Below are positions 4,761 through 29,295 of a stretch of DNA of 64,000 bases, piece by piece. The DNA is from a virus. A model generated the notes under the pieces. That model worked only from the letters and a program-made list of their open reading frames with translations. It had not been told where the DNA came from and did not search any database. Position numbers and translations under genes: made by a program. The stretch's first letter is position 1; every line of letters starts with the position of its first letter. Where the stretch lies: IMG/VR virus record IMGVR_UViG_3300006925_000007, positions 1-64,000 of that record; one strand, 5' to 3'.

Positions 4761-5056
4761 TTGCTCATCTCTTTATCTACTTTTTTCTTAGCCAGTTTTG
4801 CAACTGTCTTGTCTTGTTTTTCTGGATCAGGTGCATCAACATCGCCGTCGTGATTAAAGAAAACTACGTTATCTTTTATAGTATTTACAATGGGGATACT
4901 ATCAAGTAGTTCACGTAGTTCTTGTCCATCGACATGCATGTTTTGTGCATCTAATGTTTTTTCTAATGTTTCTAACGATACTGATGTGGCTTCTTCCGCT
5001 GTCATTACTGACAACATATCTATTAGAGTATGCCTTATTAAATCGTTATACCTCAT
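4757..5056 (-). CDS. Hypothetical small alpha-helical protein
   Basis: 99 residues, charged, with a Lys-rich C-terminal tail (DKTVAKLAKKKVDKEMSK). The N-terminal 60 residues are predicted helical (IDMLSVMTAEEATSVSLETLEKTLDA, broken here by composition only). It overlaps the next gene by an ATGA junction and follows the 5060-5821 gene after 3 nt. The family is not recognised. Confidence 0.7.
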   Translation of the reverse strand: MRYNDLIRHTLIDMLSVMTAEEATSVSLETLEKTLDAQNMHVDGQELRELLDSIPIVNTIKDNVVFFNHDGDVDAPDPEKQDKTVAKLAKKKVDKEMSK

Positions 5057-21023: not shown

Positions 21024-21052
21024 ATATTACAGTAAGATGTCTTACTTGTCAA
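21024..21052 (-). promoter_or_regulatory. Sigma70-type promoter with palindromic spacer (AAA ATPase gene)
   Basis: TTGACA (21047-21052), 17-bp spacer, TAATAT (21024-21029). The spacer holds the perfect inverted repeat AGTAAGA-CA-TCTTACT at 21031-21046, a candidate operator. It is followed by a 32-nt leader with an AGGAG site. Confidence 0.85.
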
Positions 21053-22298: not shown

Positions 22299-22327
22299 AG
22301 TATACGGTAAGAAGTCTTACTTGTCAA
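22299..22327 (-). promoter_or_regulatory. Sigma70-type promoter with palindromic spacer (22264 gene)
   Basis: TTGACA (22322-22327), 17-bp spacer, TATACT (22299-22304). Inverted repeat GTAAGA-CT-TCTTAC in the spacer at 22307-22320. It begins 17 nt after the ncRNA terminator T run. Confidence 0.88.
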
Positions 22328-22343: not shown

Positions 22344-22370
22344 AAAAAACCCAGTCCTAAAACTGGGTTT
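22344..22370 (-). terminator. Rho-independent terminator of the structured RNA
   Basis: Stem AACCCAGT / ACTGGGTT with loop TTTAGG, then a run of six T on the minus strand. Its 3' arm GGACTGGG is also perfectly complementary to CCCAGTCC upstream in the RNA (plus-strand 22391-22398), so an alternative pairing exists. Confidence 0.88.
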
Positions 22371-22591
22371 TTAAATAAGCAAAATAGGGAGGACTGGGGT
22401 GCACCTCCAAGTAGCACATCTAGATACCTTTTCTAACTACACTACCACCTACTCCTGCGTATCCGCAATGTGACTCCCTCCGTTTTCCGGGTAAAGCCTG
22501 GGTATAACCCCTGAGCAGTCAAGTTCGACGCCTAGGTAACGCCTCTTCCTTGCACTATAAACATTGAGCCGCTAAACTCTTTGTTGCTTAT
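22344..22591 (-). ncRNA. Self-contained structured non-coding RNA, about 248 nt, unknown class
   Basis: Consensus promoter upstream, terminator at the end and no plausible reading frame between. The predicted +1 (22591) begins AUAAGCAA, which pairs perfectly with UUGCUUAU at 22375-22382, so the RNA body (about 217 nt) is closed by an 8-bp P1 helix that starts at the first transcribed base. Inside are a bipartite helix GACU/AGUC plus CUC/GAG enclosing GGG-GUUAUA-CCC and CCG-GAAAA-CGG hairpins, and a GCG-GAUA-CGC hairpin. The region is clearly more GC-rich than its surroundings. I could not match it to tmRNA, RNase P, 6S, group I intron or a riboswitch class from memory. Confidence 0.8.
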
Positions 22592-22597
22592 GTATTT

Positions 22598-22626
22598 AAT
22601 ATAATACATCTTGACCGAAAAGTCAA
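22598..22626 (-). promoter_or_regulatory. Sigma70-type promoter of the structured RNA
   Basis: TTGACT (22621-22626), 17-bp spacer, TATATT (22598-22603). The spacer lacks the AAGAnnTCTT palindrome but the -35 region forms TTGAC-N6-GTCAA. It predicts +1 at about 22591. Confidence 0.85.
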
Positions 22627-22645: not shown

Positions 22646-23350
22646 TTAAATTTTATATATGGTTTCTTTGTTACCTTTTGCAACTAAATTCCATGTTGTT
22701 TCTGTTGCTGTTCCTGTTATCTGCAAACAAGGTCTTTTAGTCCAACTACCATTCCATGTAACATGCGGCAGTGTGCTCCAATCCCATGCAAATATTGTTC
22801 CTGCTTTCCATTGTGTATACACAATGTTTCCAAATTGAAATATTTGTCCTGGTTCGTGATCTTCTAATGTAATTAAAAAACGTATCTTATCAGGATGCTG
22901 ATACTTAAACTCTGGGTTGTCAATAACTCTATCCTTGCGTGGGTTTCCGGGTAAGTTATCAATGTGCCACATTAACTGATCATTTGGATACTGATCGTTA
23001 AATTTACATGTTAGTTTCTCATCTGTGTTGAAACAAAACATGTCTGTAATCTTTGTAAACTGTGGAAACTCTCCTGGAAACTTATCGTAATTAACTTTAC
23101 GAAACATAGTTGTGTTTGGCTTTCCATATGGGTTGTCTGCATCTTCTACGACATGATCTTTGCTTTTAACATTAGCCGCATGCTCGTATCTTTGTTCGTT
23201 GTAGATTTGAGTTCGCACACCCTTGCTACGTGCATGTTCTATTTCTGCTTTCCAGTCGCCTGCTAATACGCCTGCGATCTTAACGTATTCGCCTTCTTTA
23301 TCTTCTTTAAATTTATCAAAGTGCCATGGTGTTTTAAAAGGTGAGGGCAT
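22646..23350 (-). CDS. 2-oxoglutarate/Fe(II)-type oxygenase-like protein
   Basis: 234 residues. The iron facial triad can be placed: H129-I-D131 (MWHIDNLPGN) and distal H196 (STLPHVTWNG) with R206 ten residues later as the 2-oxoglutarate-binding candidate. The intervening strands (KIRFLITLEDHEPGQIFQFG, TIFAWDWS) fit the double-stranded beta helix. Such dioxygenase genes are frequent in marine T4-like phages, with unknown targets. It has an AGGAGTA ribosome binding site and a late box upstream that touches the uvsY stop, so it appears late although it sits in the recombination block. Confidence 0.75.
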   Translation of the reverse strand: MPSPFKTPWHFDKFKEDKEGEYVKIAGVLAGDWKAEIEHARSKGVRTQIYNEQRYEHAANVKSKDHVVEDADNPYGKPNTTMFRKVNYDKFPGEFPQFTKITDMFCFNTDEKLTCKFNDQYPNDQLMWHIDNLPGNPRKDRVIDNPEFKYQHPDKIRFLITLEDHEPGQIFQFGNIVYTQWKAGTIFAWDWSTLPHVTWNGSWTKRPCLQITGTATETTWNLVAKGNKETIYKI

Positions 23351-23857: not shown

Positions 23858-24123
23858 TAATCTTCATCTTCCCAATATTCTTCTGCATATTCTTCGTCAG
23901 AGTCGTGGTCATCATTGACTTCAAAGTGATCTGCAAGTGCTTGGTCTAAATGTTCATCGTGATCACCTATTTCAACCGCATGTCTTGTTAGATCTACGCC
24001 GTAATCATCTAAAGTAAAGATATAGTCTTCTGCAAACTTTTCTTTATTTTTGTCTGGTATATGTGCTATTGCTTTATCGAAAATTTGTAAGAATAACTCT
24101 AAATCGTTATCACTCAGATTCAT
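23857..24123 (-). CDS. Small acidic hypothetical protein between uvsX and uvsY
   Basis: 88 residues from the ATG at 24123 (MNLSDNDLELFLQIFDKAIA). An earlier in-frame ATG at 24153 is rejected because a perfect AGGAGG (24130-24135) sits 6 nt before the later ATG. It overlaps the uvsX 3' end by 14 nt. The N-terminal half is helical; the C-terminal 35 residues are extremely acidic (HDSDEEYAEEYWEDED), resembling DNA-mimic tails or the acidic C-tail of gp32. A modulator of recombination is possible but unproven. Confidence 0.75.
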   Translation of the reverse strand: MNLSDNDLELFLQIFDKAIAHIPDKNKEKFAEDYIFTLDDYGVDLTRHAVEIGDHDEHLDQALADHFEVNDDHDSDEEYAEEYWEDED

Positions 24124-25207
24124 TAATAACCTCCTGGTTAGGTTGTTCGCCATCGCTATCTTTTATGTGATCTGGTTGCATATCCCATTCATTCATAACA
24201 AGATCCAAGCAATTATCTTTGTTAGCATTCCAAGGTTTGCGGAACATTTTAATTACTTCACCTGTTACCGGGCTAATATATTCTAAACTGTTACCACTTT
24301 TCTTAAGAACATCTTTTGCTTCAAAGAATTCAACTAGTCCACTGTATGGACTCATACCTGTTTCGTATGGAATTTCTACTTGCACACTTTCAAATGGTTT
24401 TGCATAACGTGTTTTCATTACCTTACACGCTGCTCTAATACCAAATACTTGTGATGTTTTATTGCCTTCTGCATCTACTTTTAGTTTAAGTTTACGCATT
24501 GCGATAACAATACTACTTGCATAGATAAAGCCTTGACCACCTGAGATCTTATCATCTGGATCAAACATATCTTGTGATGCATATGTATGGTTTGTGCATA
24601 ACATACCAACATTAAACTCACCAAACATATTAACTGTGTTACGAACTAATGAAGTTAGTGCTTTAGGCTTACGACCCATATCACCTTTCATATCACCTTT
24701 TTGAAACTGATCAACATCAGTAGGTGTTAGTAACATACCTAAACTATCTACAACAAATAATACTTTAGGACGTTCTTCCTTTTCTTTATCTGTATATTCT
24801 GCTTTATAATCTTTCATAAAGTCACTCACTGTGCGAGCAACATCATCAATCATACTCATGTTTAGTTTTAGTAGTTTATCTTCAGCAGTATCTACGTCAA
24901 GTGCATGTAGCCATTTCTCATCTAGTGCGTTTTCACTATCAATAAGAACTACAAATATACCTTGATCTTGTGCTGCCTTAACTACATTACCTGCTGCAAT
25001 GTAACTTTTGCCTGCACCTGATTCTCCTGCAAGAACAGTTACTTTACCTAAAGGAATACCTTTCACAAAGTCGTTACTGATTAATTTGTTTAGTGTGTAG
25101 TTGCCTGTTGAGATCCATGTGTCTGGATCATTAAACCCGACACTTAGTCCGGGCACCGCTTTAGTAATACTTTTACGGAATTTGCTTACGTCAAAAGGTT
25201 TTGCCAT
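24110..25207 (-). CDS. uvsX: UvsX recombinase (RecA family)
   Basis: 365 residues (T4 UvsX 391). Walker A GESGAGKS (61-68), Walker B region KVLFVVDSLGML (about 147-158), and a RecA-like L2 region with the conserved GGQGFIYASSIVIAM segment. It forms filaments on single-stranded DNA for strand exchange. The C-terminus is acidic (DSDGEQPNQEVINESE). Ribosome binding site GGAGA. It lies downstream of the gp32 terminator hairpin, so expression probably depends on read-through. High certainty. Confidence 0.95.
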   Translation of the reverse strand: MAKPFDVSKFRKSITKAVPGLSVGFNDPDTWISTGNYTLNKLISNDFVKGIPLGKVTVLAGESGAGKSYIAAGNVVKAAQDQGIFVVLIDSENALDEKWLHALDVDTAEDKLLKLNMSMIDDVARTVSDFMKDYKAEYTDKEKEERPKVLFVVDSLGMLLTPTDVDQFQKGDMKGDMGRKPKALTSLVRNTVNMFGEFNVGMLCTNHTYASQDMFDPDDKISGGQGFIYASSIVIAMRKLKLKVDAEGNKTSQVFGIRAACKVMKTRYAKPFESVQVEIPYETGMSPYSGLVEFFEAKDVLKKSGNSLEYISPVTGEVIKMFRKPWNANKDNCLDLVMNEWDMQPDHIKDSDGEQPNQEVINESE

Positions 25208-27732: not shown

Positions 27733-29295
27733 TTATAACATACTAAAAGGCATAGGCTGCATAAAATCGTCATCATCGTCATCTACTAGGTATTCAAATG
27801 CTGATTCTTCATAGTTAACAATTTCTTGTGCCATTCGCACTATTAATATAAGTGCCATAACCAAGTCATCGTGTTCGCCGTCTTTTGCTGAATAACTATT
27901 ACCACGTGCAATAAAGACTTTGAGTTCGCCCAATAAGTTTTGACTTGCTATTTCTAGTTTATCTGTTTCTATCCAATGTTTTAGTTTACTACATGCTGTA
28001 AGTTTACTTTTATGTGTTGTAGTAAATCCTTTTCTAAACCTACGTGCATTACCGTGCCGTTTTGTTTCACTAATGAATGTGCCTGGAAAAAATTCTTCAC
28101 CTGTTTCTGCAATTACAACTAAAGCCGCTTCACCTAGTGTGTTATTCTCTACACTATAATACTGTTCTGCTTCACCATCTGTTTCAGTTTCTATATACAT
28201 TAATATTTCACGTAGTATTTTAATCTGACCTTGAACAGTAGTTTTATTGTGTTGCCATTCTGCTACTTGTTTCATTCCTGGCATTTCGTATACCTGTATT
28301 GCAGCAGAGTCGCCACCTGTTCCCAAACTTGGGTCCAATGATGACATGTATATTTTGTCTTTGCGTATTGGTCTATACCAACGCACCTGTCCCATTTTAG
28401 CATATGGTTGTTTTGCTTCCATTAATGATAGTTTGATACTGTCAATAAGTGTCTCGTCAAACGCAATAAACTCATTTAAGTGTTCACGTCTAAAACGTTC
28501 TTCGCCAATTTTGTTGCGTTCTTCTTCTGCCCATTCTTCATCTCTTTCTGGGTGATATTTCCAATCAGCGTTAAAGGATTTGAATCCATTTAATCCCAAT
28601 CCATTTTCTGTGTCGTTACCAAATTCATCTTGTGCTTTAGCAGCCTCTCTATAAATTTGTGCAAATTGGTCATCATCCTGATTTGGTGTGCTTGTAATAA
28701 TACATTTACCACCAGTTGATAATGTAGGTGATAGTGCTGTCCAAAATTCTTTGGCTATGTTAGGACGCACAAATGCAAATTCGTCTAAGTATGCTAATGA
28801 TATACTCAAACCACGTCCAGTATTTTCTGTTGTTGACTGTGCAATAATACGTGACCCATTATCAAATTCTAAACTACCTTTATTGTAACTTGTTACACCT
28901 GCACGTATAAAGTCTGGAAGTGTTTCGTATGCAAAACGTATACGTTGCATAATTTCACTTGCACCTGAATATTTGTGTGCTGCAATAAGAATCGTTTGAT
29001 CAGGAACAAACATAGCATACCATAATAGATATCCTGCTGCCGCTGTTGATTTACCCATTTGCCTACTTACCAATGCAATACTGTATCTGTTGTTGTGATA
29101 ACAGTCTACAAGTTCTTTTTGATAATCAAATAAGTCAAATTTTACACGACCTTTAGTTGGATGTTGAATCCAACAATGGTTTATCAAGAAGTATTTTGGA
29201 TCTTCAGCACACTTGGCTAATTCCAATAAATCTTCTTCTGTAAACTTTTCTTTTTGATACGGAGTTTTGGTTAATTTTGTATCTGCTGTGCTCAT
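27733..29295 (-). CDS. gp17: Terminase large subunit, gp17
   Basis: 520 residues. ATPase: Walker A SRQMGKST (77-84), Walker B with catalytic Glu LAYLDEF (167-173), coupling motif TSTPN (201-205). RNase H-like nuclease: D321 (SSLDPSLG), E383 (YSVENNT), D476/D477 (DGEHDDLVM), matching the acidic triad of T4 gp17. It packages DNA into proheads and cuts headful concatemers. It lacks about 90 residues relative to T4 gp17 (610), mainly at the ends. An Asp-rich tail (VDDDDDD) precedes the C-terminus. Near-leaderless late promoter. Confidence 0.96.
   Translation of the reverse strand: MSTADTKLTKTPYQKEKFTEEDLLELAKCAEDPKYFLINHCWIQHPTKGRVKFDLFDYQKELVDCYHNNRYSIALVSRQMGKSTAAAGYLLWYAMFVPDQTILIAAHKYSGASEIMQRIRFAYETLPDFIRAGVTSYNKGSLEFDNGSRIIAQSTTENTGRGLSISLAYLDEFAFVRPNIAKEFWTALSPTLSTGGKCIITSTPNQDDDQFAQIYREAAKAQDEFGNDTENGLGLNGFKSFNADWKYHPERDEEWAEEERNKIGEERFRREHLNEFIAFDETLIDSIKLSLMEAKQPYAKMGQVRWYRPIRKDKIYMSSLDPSLGTGGDSAAIQVYEMPGMKQVAEWQHNKTTVQGQIKILREILMYIETETDGEAEQYYSVENNTLGEAALVVIAETGEEFFPGTFISETKRHGNARRFRKGFTTTHKSKLTACSKLKHWIETDKLEIASQNLLGELKVFIARGNSYSAKDGEHDDLVMALILIVRMAQEIVNYEESAFEYLVDDDDDDFMQPMPFSML

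Follow-up and report, generated by a model that had tools for sequence, protein, structure and literature searches.

The manA RNA motif (RF01745, filed in Rfam as type Cis-reg) was catalogued as a cis-regulatory element, probably a riboswitch, in potential 5' UTRs, and the portions of that catalogue that concern its distribution describe it as mostly marine, carried by T4-like cyanophages plus two gamma-proteobacterial copies (PMC2864571). In the relevant passages of later papers, its regulatory role is still to be verified (S-CREM1 paper, PMC9964418) or it is placed among cis-regulatory RNAs (S-CREM2 paper, PMC10665884), Rfam 14 gives 48 significant pairs for the ZWD alignment of manA (PMC7779021), and a methods paper citing Rfam remarks that manA is frequently adjacent to tRNAs (PMC3692125), so that the tRNA adjacency described below is not new. 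In the accessible portions of the manA and phage-RNA literature, subscription journals being scarcely covered, we recognised no treatment of manA as a free-standing transcript. The catalogued cis-regulatory role is not itself a sequence criterion of the family.

The locus considered here lies in a window of 64,000 nucleotides (the whole stretch analysed), part of a 112,241-base virus record (IMGVR_UViG_3300006925_000007), where a first-pass annotation had proposed a self-contained structured RNA of no known class, possibly new. The novelty does not hold: covariance models, which score sequence and structure together, show significant homology with manA RNAs and place the window RNA in this Rfam family as a divergent member. 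The Rfam/Infernal search suggested at the outset had a divided outcome, since a scan of the whole window gave no match at gathering score, while RF01745 was found below threshold in the window and over its cut-off in relatives; the whole-window null alone is thus misleading, and relatives were needed for identification. On a 236-base stretch, manA was the sole match (22576-22378, 38.3 bits, E 9.2e-9, for a cut-off of 55.2 bits); a permissive scan of 451 bases gave 12 sub-threshold matches, none of them manA, a discrepancy perhaps due to scan filters. A covariance model built without the window sequence (R2) recovered the window RNA at 22593-22375 (166.6 bits, E 1e-54), together with the manA RNAs of cyanophages S-SSM7 (38.2 bits, E 2.8e-11) and P-SSM2 (28.6 bits, E 4.8e-8); run on short loci it did not find that of P-HM2 (two of three cyanophage manA RNAs recovered), and another model, R1, missed the canonical manA RNAs of all three phages when used with strict filters. 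Conversely, RF01745 scored over its cut-off at the RNA in nine of 20 relatives' loci (L080, L093, L204, L121, L148, L085, L165, L170 and L189). At E up to 1 it matched 12 of 22 R1-positive records, six over the cut-off and six below, and gave no match in the other ten, the window's record included. Relatives passing the cut-off in one or another of these searches include phage Mosig (64.0 bits), G001 (59.8), L189 (57.5), G015 (56.4) and G005 (55.5). The gathering score of RF01745 overlooks part of the manA family. An RNA class unrelated to manA, which the lack of a gathering-level match in the window would favour, is contradicted by R2, as it finds both window and manA RNAs, and by the RF01745 matches in relatives, leaving that reading a probability close to nil.

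Is the fold itself genuine? Single-sequence folding was dropped as proof of structure (z of -0.89 for the body, -2.63 for body plus terminator), and despite this weak fold we regard the window RNA as a genuine structured RNA because covariation among relatives, as read from aligned sequences, is decisive. Alignment A1 holds 37 relatives taken from 45 representatives (L102, L108, L129, L148, L162, L206, L245 and L251 were left out as more divergent): over 56 pairs, 96.4% of 2055 cells are paired (at most 53.9% in slid controls), 45 pairs show changes on both sides, and double-changed cells number 395 vs 126.6 in shuffles, with 0 of 500 shuffles as high. In a further alignment, A3, of 84 rows including the window, S-SSM7 and P-SSM2 RNAs, 94.3% of the 4562 cells pair and double changes affect 53 of the 56 pairs; these values, biased toward the model to which A3 was fitted, point to a covarying secondary structure common to the window RNA and manA RNAs. 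In A1, the closing helix P1 has 90.1% of its cells paired, with both-side changes in three inner pairs, and P2 (helices 2 and 3) reaches 91.9% and 93.2%; the CAAG of GUGCAAGGAA pairs with CUUG, where relatives have CUAG/CUAG or CAUC/GAUG instead, and the 3' hairpin (helix 12) is 100% paired, with three double-changed pairs. Between the window and L009, of the same subgroup, a U-A pair is swapped to A-U across the UUAG/CUAGA stem, as read from the two sequences. The covariation check on homologues proposed with the original note therefore yielded compensatory changes in P1 and the inner hairpins, and its nested hairpins are borne out by inner helices covarying across the 37 relatives. These changes refute a chance fold or coding remnant, a reading of negligible probability that the modest z of the body might have encouraged, and against which the shuffles, the short ORFs (the only ones across the RNA stretch) and indels of 1-3 bases falling between helices in A1 all speak. 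Anti-Shine-Dalgarno and CsrA-sponge ideas were likewise ruled out, because the GGAGG/CCUCC stem of helix 12 switches to other pairs and because GUGCAUCGAA variants lose the GGA of GUGCAAGGAA.

In the window (Table 1), the consensus promoter announced upstream of the RNA is present, six bases before the start of the body; its boxes are kept in L006 and L009 while the sequence between them has changed. Nine promoter-like sites were found in the whole stretch vs 9.4 expected, so that this promoter alone is no rarer than chance. The body was described as GC-richer, of about 217 nt and closed by AUAAGCAA/UUGCUUAU with its 5' strand exactly at the predicted +1, and this stands: two 200-base stretches over it have GC of 0.43 and 0.465, for 0.30-0.385 in its flanks, bar one flank stretch at 0.435. 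The terminator expected after the body is a hairpin with a U-tract (12 pairs by folding, 10 by script), absent from the output of the terminator scanner run on the window; L009 has a near-identical RNA, yet another terminator sequence at the same position. Promoter, terminator and the next gene's own promoter-like site together suggest, at the sequence level, a complete and separate transcription unit with its own promoter and 3' end, as a free-standing non-coding RNA gene would have. The view that this is a dedicated RNA gene, not the leader of the next gene, thus gains support from P1 at +1, covariation and the RNA's own terminator, and further because the next gene has a separate promoter-like site.

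Table 1. Predicted features of the RNA locus and of the gene that follows it (window coordinates)
Feature	Position	Strand	Basis or remark
Sigma-70-type promoter of the RNA gene, TTGACT-17-TATATT	22598..22626	(-)	10/12 consensus matches
manA-type RNA body, 217 nt, +1 to P1 end	22375..22591	(-)	R2 model, covariation, RF01745 below cut-off
P1 closing helix, 5' strand AUAAGCAA	22584..22591	(-)	First base = predicted +1
P2 hairpin, first base pairs common to inner end of P1	22560..22585	(-)	A1
Conserved stretch GUGCAAGGAA	22546..22555	(-)	A1 helix 5, 100% paired
3' hairpin GGAGG..CCUCC, conserved loop (GGUR..AGUCC)	22388..22408	(-)	A1 helix 12
P1 closing helix, 3' strand UUGCUUAU	22375..22382	(-)	
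Intrinsic terminator, hairpin + U-tract	22344..22372	(-)	Two bases past P1
Promoter-like site of next gene, TTGACA-17-TATACT	22299..22327	(-)	11/12 matches
Next gene downstream, 244 aa	21530..22264	(-)	phrog_3628, phrog_30451; no assigned function

The RNA had been placed between an oxygenase gene and an operator-controlled gene. The first attribution stays unconfirmed, as the ORF at 22646-23350 has no Pfam or PHROG match; on the other side, the perfect palindrome GTAAGAAGTCTTAC (22307-22320) does lie inside the spacer of the next gene's promoter-like site. This palindrome, GTAAGANNTCTTAC, occurs in two perfect copies (22307-22320 and 21032-21045), each within a promoter-like spacer (sites 22327-22299 and 21052-21024), and with up to two mismatches it has 10 matches vs 3.05 expected, 0 of 100 shuffles having as many; it looks like a phage repressor operator. 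Of 36 loci from its kin that hold the upstream ORF, the same eight carry both the RNA and the next gene, so the two may travel together. The UvsX-like and terminase-like proteins of the window (24110-25207 and 27733-29295) have jumbo phages as their nearest isolates, with identities of 67% to Phosso and 57.5% to PA5oct-like phages, so that we are probably dealing with a marine jumbo phage, of which the record would be a fragment.

A blastn search with the window RNA (E up to 1) returned eight isolate-phage records, of which Pelagibacter phage Mosig EXVC030M alone is convincing (2e-11; 54% of the query aligned at 72.6% identity, within a gap of the Mosig annotation), the remaining seven having E of 8e-3 to 0.1; L107 likewise retrieved Mosig only among isolates, and L144 and L170 nothing. 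Further relatives came from pattern scans of viral contigs, whose numbers are those of the matches listed and hence a lower bound. With E up to 1, model R1 matched 92 times in one set of 93 sources and 88 times in another of 100, the weakest three matches (10-18 bits) being cut by contig ends. From these 180, 12 at or cut by a contig end were dropped (L040, L046, L060, L076, L082, L139, L142, L195, L202, L209, L210 and L235), and of the resulting 168, 103 loci were left below 95% likeness; L043, L050, L058, L066, L068, L070, L078, L081, L105, L126, L127, L140 and L241-L254 were not in the R1 runs. Positive records hold a single copy each (18 of 33 records with R1, and four of 13 isolates, namely Mosig, P-HM2, P-SSM2 and S-SSM7); the 18 of 33 is no measure of frequency, because many records were picked for holding the RNA. 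RF01745 with strict filters was negative in the other nine isolates (HTVC008M, S-PM2, Syn9, S-SM2, S-CRM01, Atu_ph07, Phosso, Vibrio 2.275.O and SCTP-2). For cellular genomes, R1 was run on 80 of at least 120 pattern-scan stretches. Its single match was weak (11.4 bits, E 0.14), so these 80 yielded no bacterial copy, which is no proof of absence. Other structured RNAs share contigs with manA-type RNAs, for example freshwater-2 RNA (RF02980; L101 934-1020, L190 954-1040 and L162 2734-2816) and a glutamine riboswitch (L115 286-335).

Promoter boxes recur at the 5' end of these RNAs. At a distance of 0-8 nt upstream, 56 of 103 loci carry a -10 box with 5/6 matches or better (controls: 6.2% at random, 8.1% near ORF starts), and 45 of them also have a -35 with no fewer than 4/6 (1.2% and 1.7%, respectively); 47 loci have no -10 of 5/6 at P1. 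The best P1 helix begins 5-9 nt past the -10 box in 44 of the 56, with a mode of 7, and the manA RNAs of P-SSM2, P-HM2 and S-SSM7 have -35/-10 boxes directly upstream. The coincidence of +1 with the start of the closing helix, first pointed out in the window, thus extends to many relatives and to three cyanophage manA RNAs, which makes the catalogued role of manA doubtful.

According to that role, manA would be a leader acting in cis, probably a riboswitch, through which a metabolite regulates the gene that follows. The excerpted catalogue classifies it so (PMC2864571), and its arrangement is compatible with this in part of the family: in 30 of 103 loci an ORF of the same orientation lies no more than 120 nt away with no terminator found, manA precedes purL by 15 nt in P-SSM2 and gp32 by 43 nt in P-HM2, and downstream clusters recur non-randomly, since the next ORFs of at least 60 aa form 42 BLAST clusters among 98 loci, the largest holding 25 loci and another 11 (locus ORFs come from a simple longest-ORF routine, which makes the counts of clusters and distances approximate, and short ORFs may be spurious). 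Against it, a terminator starts within 25 nt past the RNA in 39 of 102 loci (controls: 0.85% at random places, 65 of 860 ORF ends), beginning at the RNA end and overlapping the model end by at most three bases. In MFE folds of these 39 loci the terminator is kept in all 39 and P1 in 17, always alongside it, so that the predicted terminators never exclude P1 where P1 is predicted; in the window fold, the terminator uses no P1 bases and the two form together. A terminator-type expression platform sharing aptamer bases, as expected of a riboswitch, was found neither in the window fold nor in the 39 terminator loci, and a terminator and a second promoter-like site precede the next gene in the window, where the RNA does not fit the catalogued 5' UTR position. 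Single copy, convergent downstream genes and tRNA neighbours also tell against a leader: next ORFs of at least 100 aa are convergent in nine of 98 loci (L044, L134, L089, L062, L109, L071, L079, L228 and L189), and tRNA or tmRNA genes lie within set distance limits in nine of 103. The last base of the S-SSM7 manA RNA immediately precedes tRNA-Gly, 1-5 bases separate RNA and tRNA in L165, L170, L172, L174 and L187, and a tmRNA is followed on the same strand by manA, by Rfam boundaries, 9 bases away in L204 (85-870) and 12 in L148 (8176-8720). Weighing both sides, we consider the leader reading unlikely.

Several observations on neighbouring sequences can be added. In 23 of 99 loci, the ORF that precedes the RNA falls into a single cluster of about 390 aa (L107 6643-7821, L144, L182, L214 and others), which we take to resemble the T4-type major capsid protein gp23. 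In P-SSM2 and P-HM2 (L401 and L402), where the closing helix has a C-rich end with a T run right behind it, the helix itself might serve to end transcription. Two tiny annotated ORFs of P-HM2 (GU075905), PHM2_011 and PHM2_012, overlap the manA RNA at 4771-4969, as does the small annotated ORF SSSM7_180 in S-SSM7 (GU071098, 151363-151563); all three may be spurious, and their reported expression could stem from the RNA. Passages of a study of P-HM2 infection contain no mention of PHM2_01x, noncoding or ncRNA (PMC5082946).

Could manA be a mixed family, free-standing in some phages and a leader or dual-function element elsewhere? Both kinds of context do occur within it, but the core and the promoter boxes at P1 are common to both: among the 56 promoter-bearing loci, 26 have a terminator, while 17 lack one and have an ORF at 120 nt or less. 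This suggests one function with varying neighbours, and a mixed family seems to us quite improbable.

Promoters, terminators, tRNAs, convergent genes and single copy are better accounted for by a free-standing RNA than by a riboswitch. In our view, this compact and strongly conserved RNA of a marine phage related to T4 is likely to be the product of a free-standing gene, a divergent manA member acting in trans. A host-type polymerase would start from the sigma-70-type promoter at the 5' base of P1 and be stopped by the terminator two bases past P1, the product being a presumably stable multi-branched RNA of about 217-245 nt, encoded once per phage and presumed to act in trans. Its counterparts in relatives are followed by a terminator or abut tRNA or tmRNA genes, in which case tRNA-processing enzymes could release them. 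With a promoter and a terminator of its own, and with tRNAs close by in some relatives, it seems to be a free-acting phage RNA, not a gene-controlling switch. What it does is a matter for a low-confidence guess: because the gene adjoins tRNA and tmRNA genes in several phages, a role in host take-over via translation or stable-RNA metabolism may be imagined. For the family as a whole, we would give even chances to the following: manA is carried mostly by phages, in single copy, and is transcribed from host-type promoters into an RNA that works in trans, perhaps as an RNP or a ribozyme. Cyanophages, pelagiphages and marine jumbo phages would use it in host take-over, perhaps by acting on translation or on tRNA/tmRNA metabolism. 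If so, a widespread phage non-coding RNA has been mislabelled since 2010 as a cis-regulatory riboswitch candidate, an orphan 'riboswitch' family would join the free-standing phage RNAs, and a protein or RNA partner should be sought in place of a ligand and a regulated downstream gene. The four single-copy isolates render the question of a free-standing RNA directly testable.

Closing helices are a feature of other free-standing structured RNAs such as tmRNA, 6S RNA and RNase P RNA, and these candidates were rejected with no Rfam or ARAGORN match in the window. Phage-associated free-standing RNAs at tRNA loci include GOLLD, and both ROOL and GOLLD are several times larger than the window RNA, which is not a member of either, neither having an Rfam match in the window. 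ROOL, described in part of a published account as a phage-associated free-standing RNA at tRNA loci, is thus compared for its way of working only (PMC12191101). The wcaG RNA and the glutamine (glnA) riboswitch are, according to the passages that mention them, likewise structured RNAs of T4-like marine phages (PMC2864571, PMC9964418), and the window RNA has no Rfam match to either. The manA RNA remains the closest system: it has the same closing helix, P2 hairpin, multi-branched core and 3' hairpin, and is homologous to the window RNA by covariance models both ways and via intermediates, whereas the window copy differs by its sub-cut-off score and, in contrast with a family catalogued as cis-regulatory, by its apparent organization as a complete transcription unit with a terminator.
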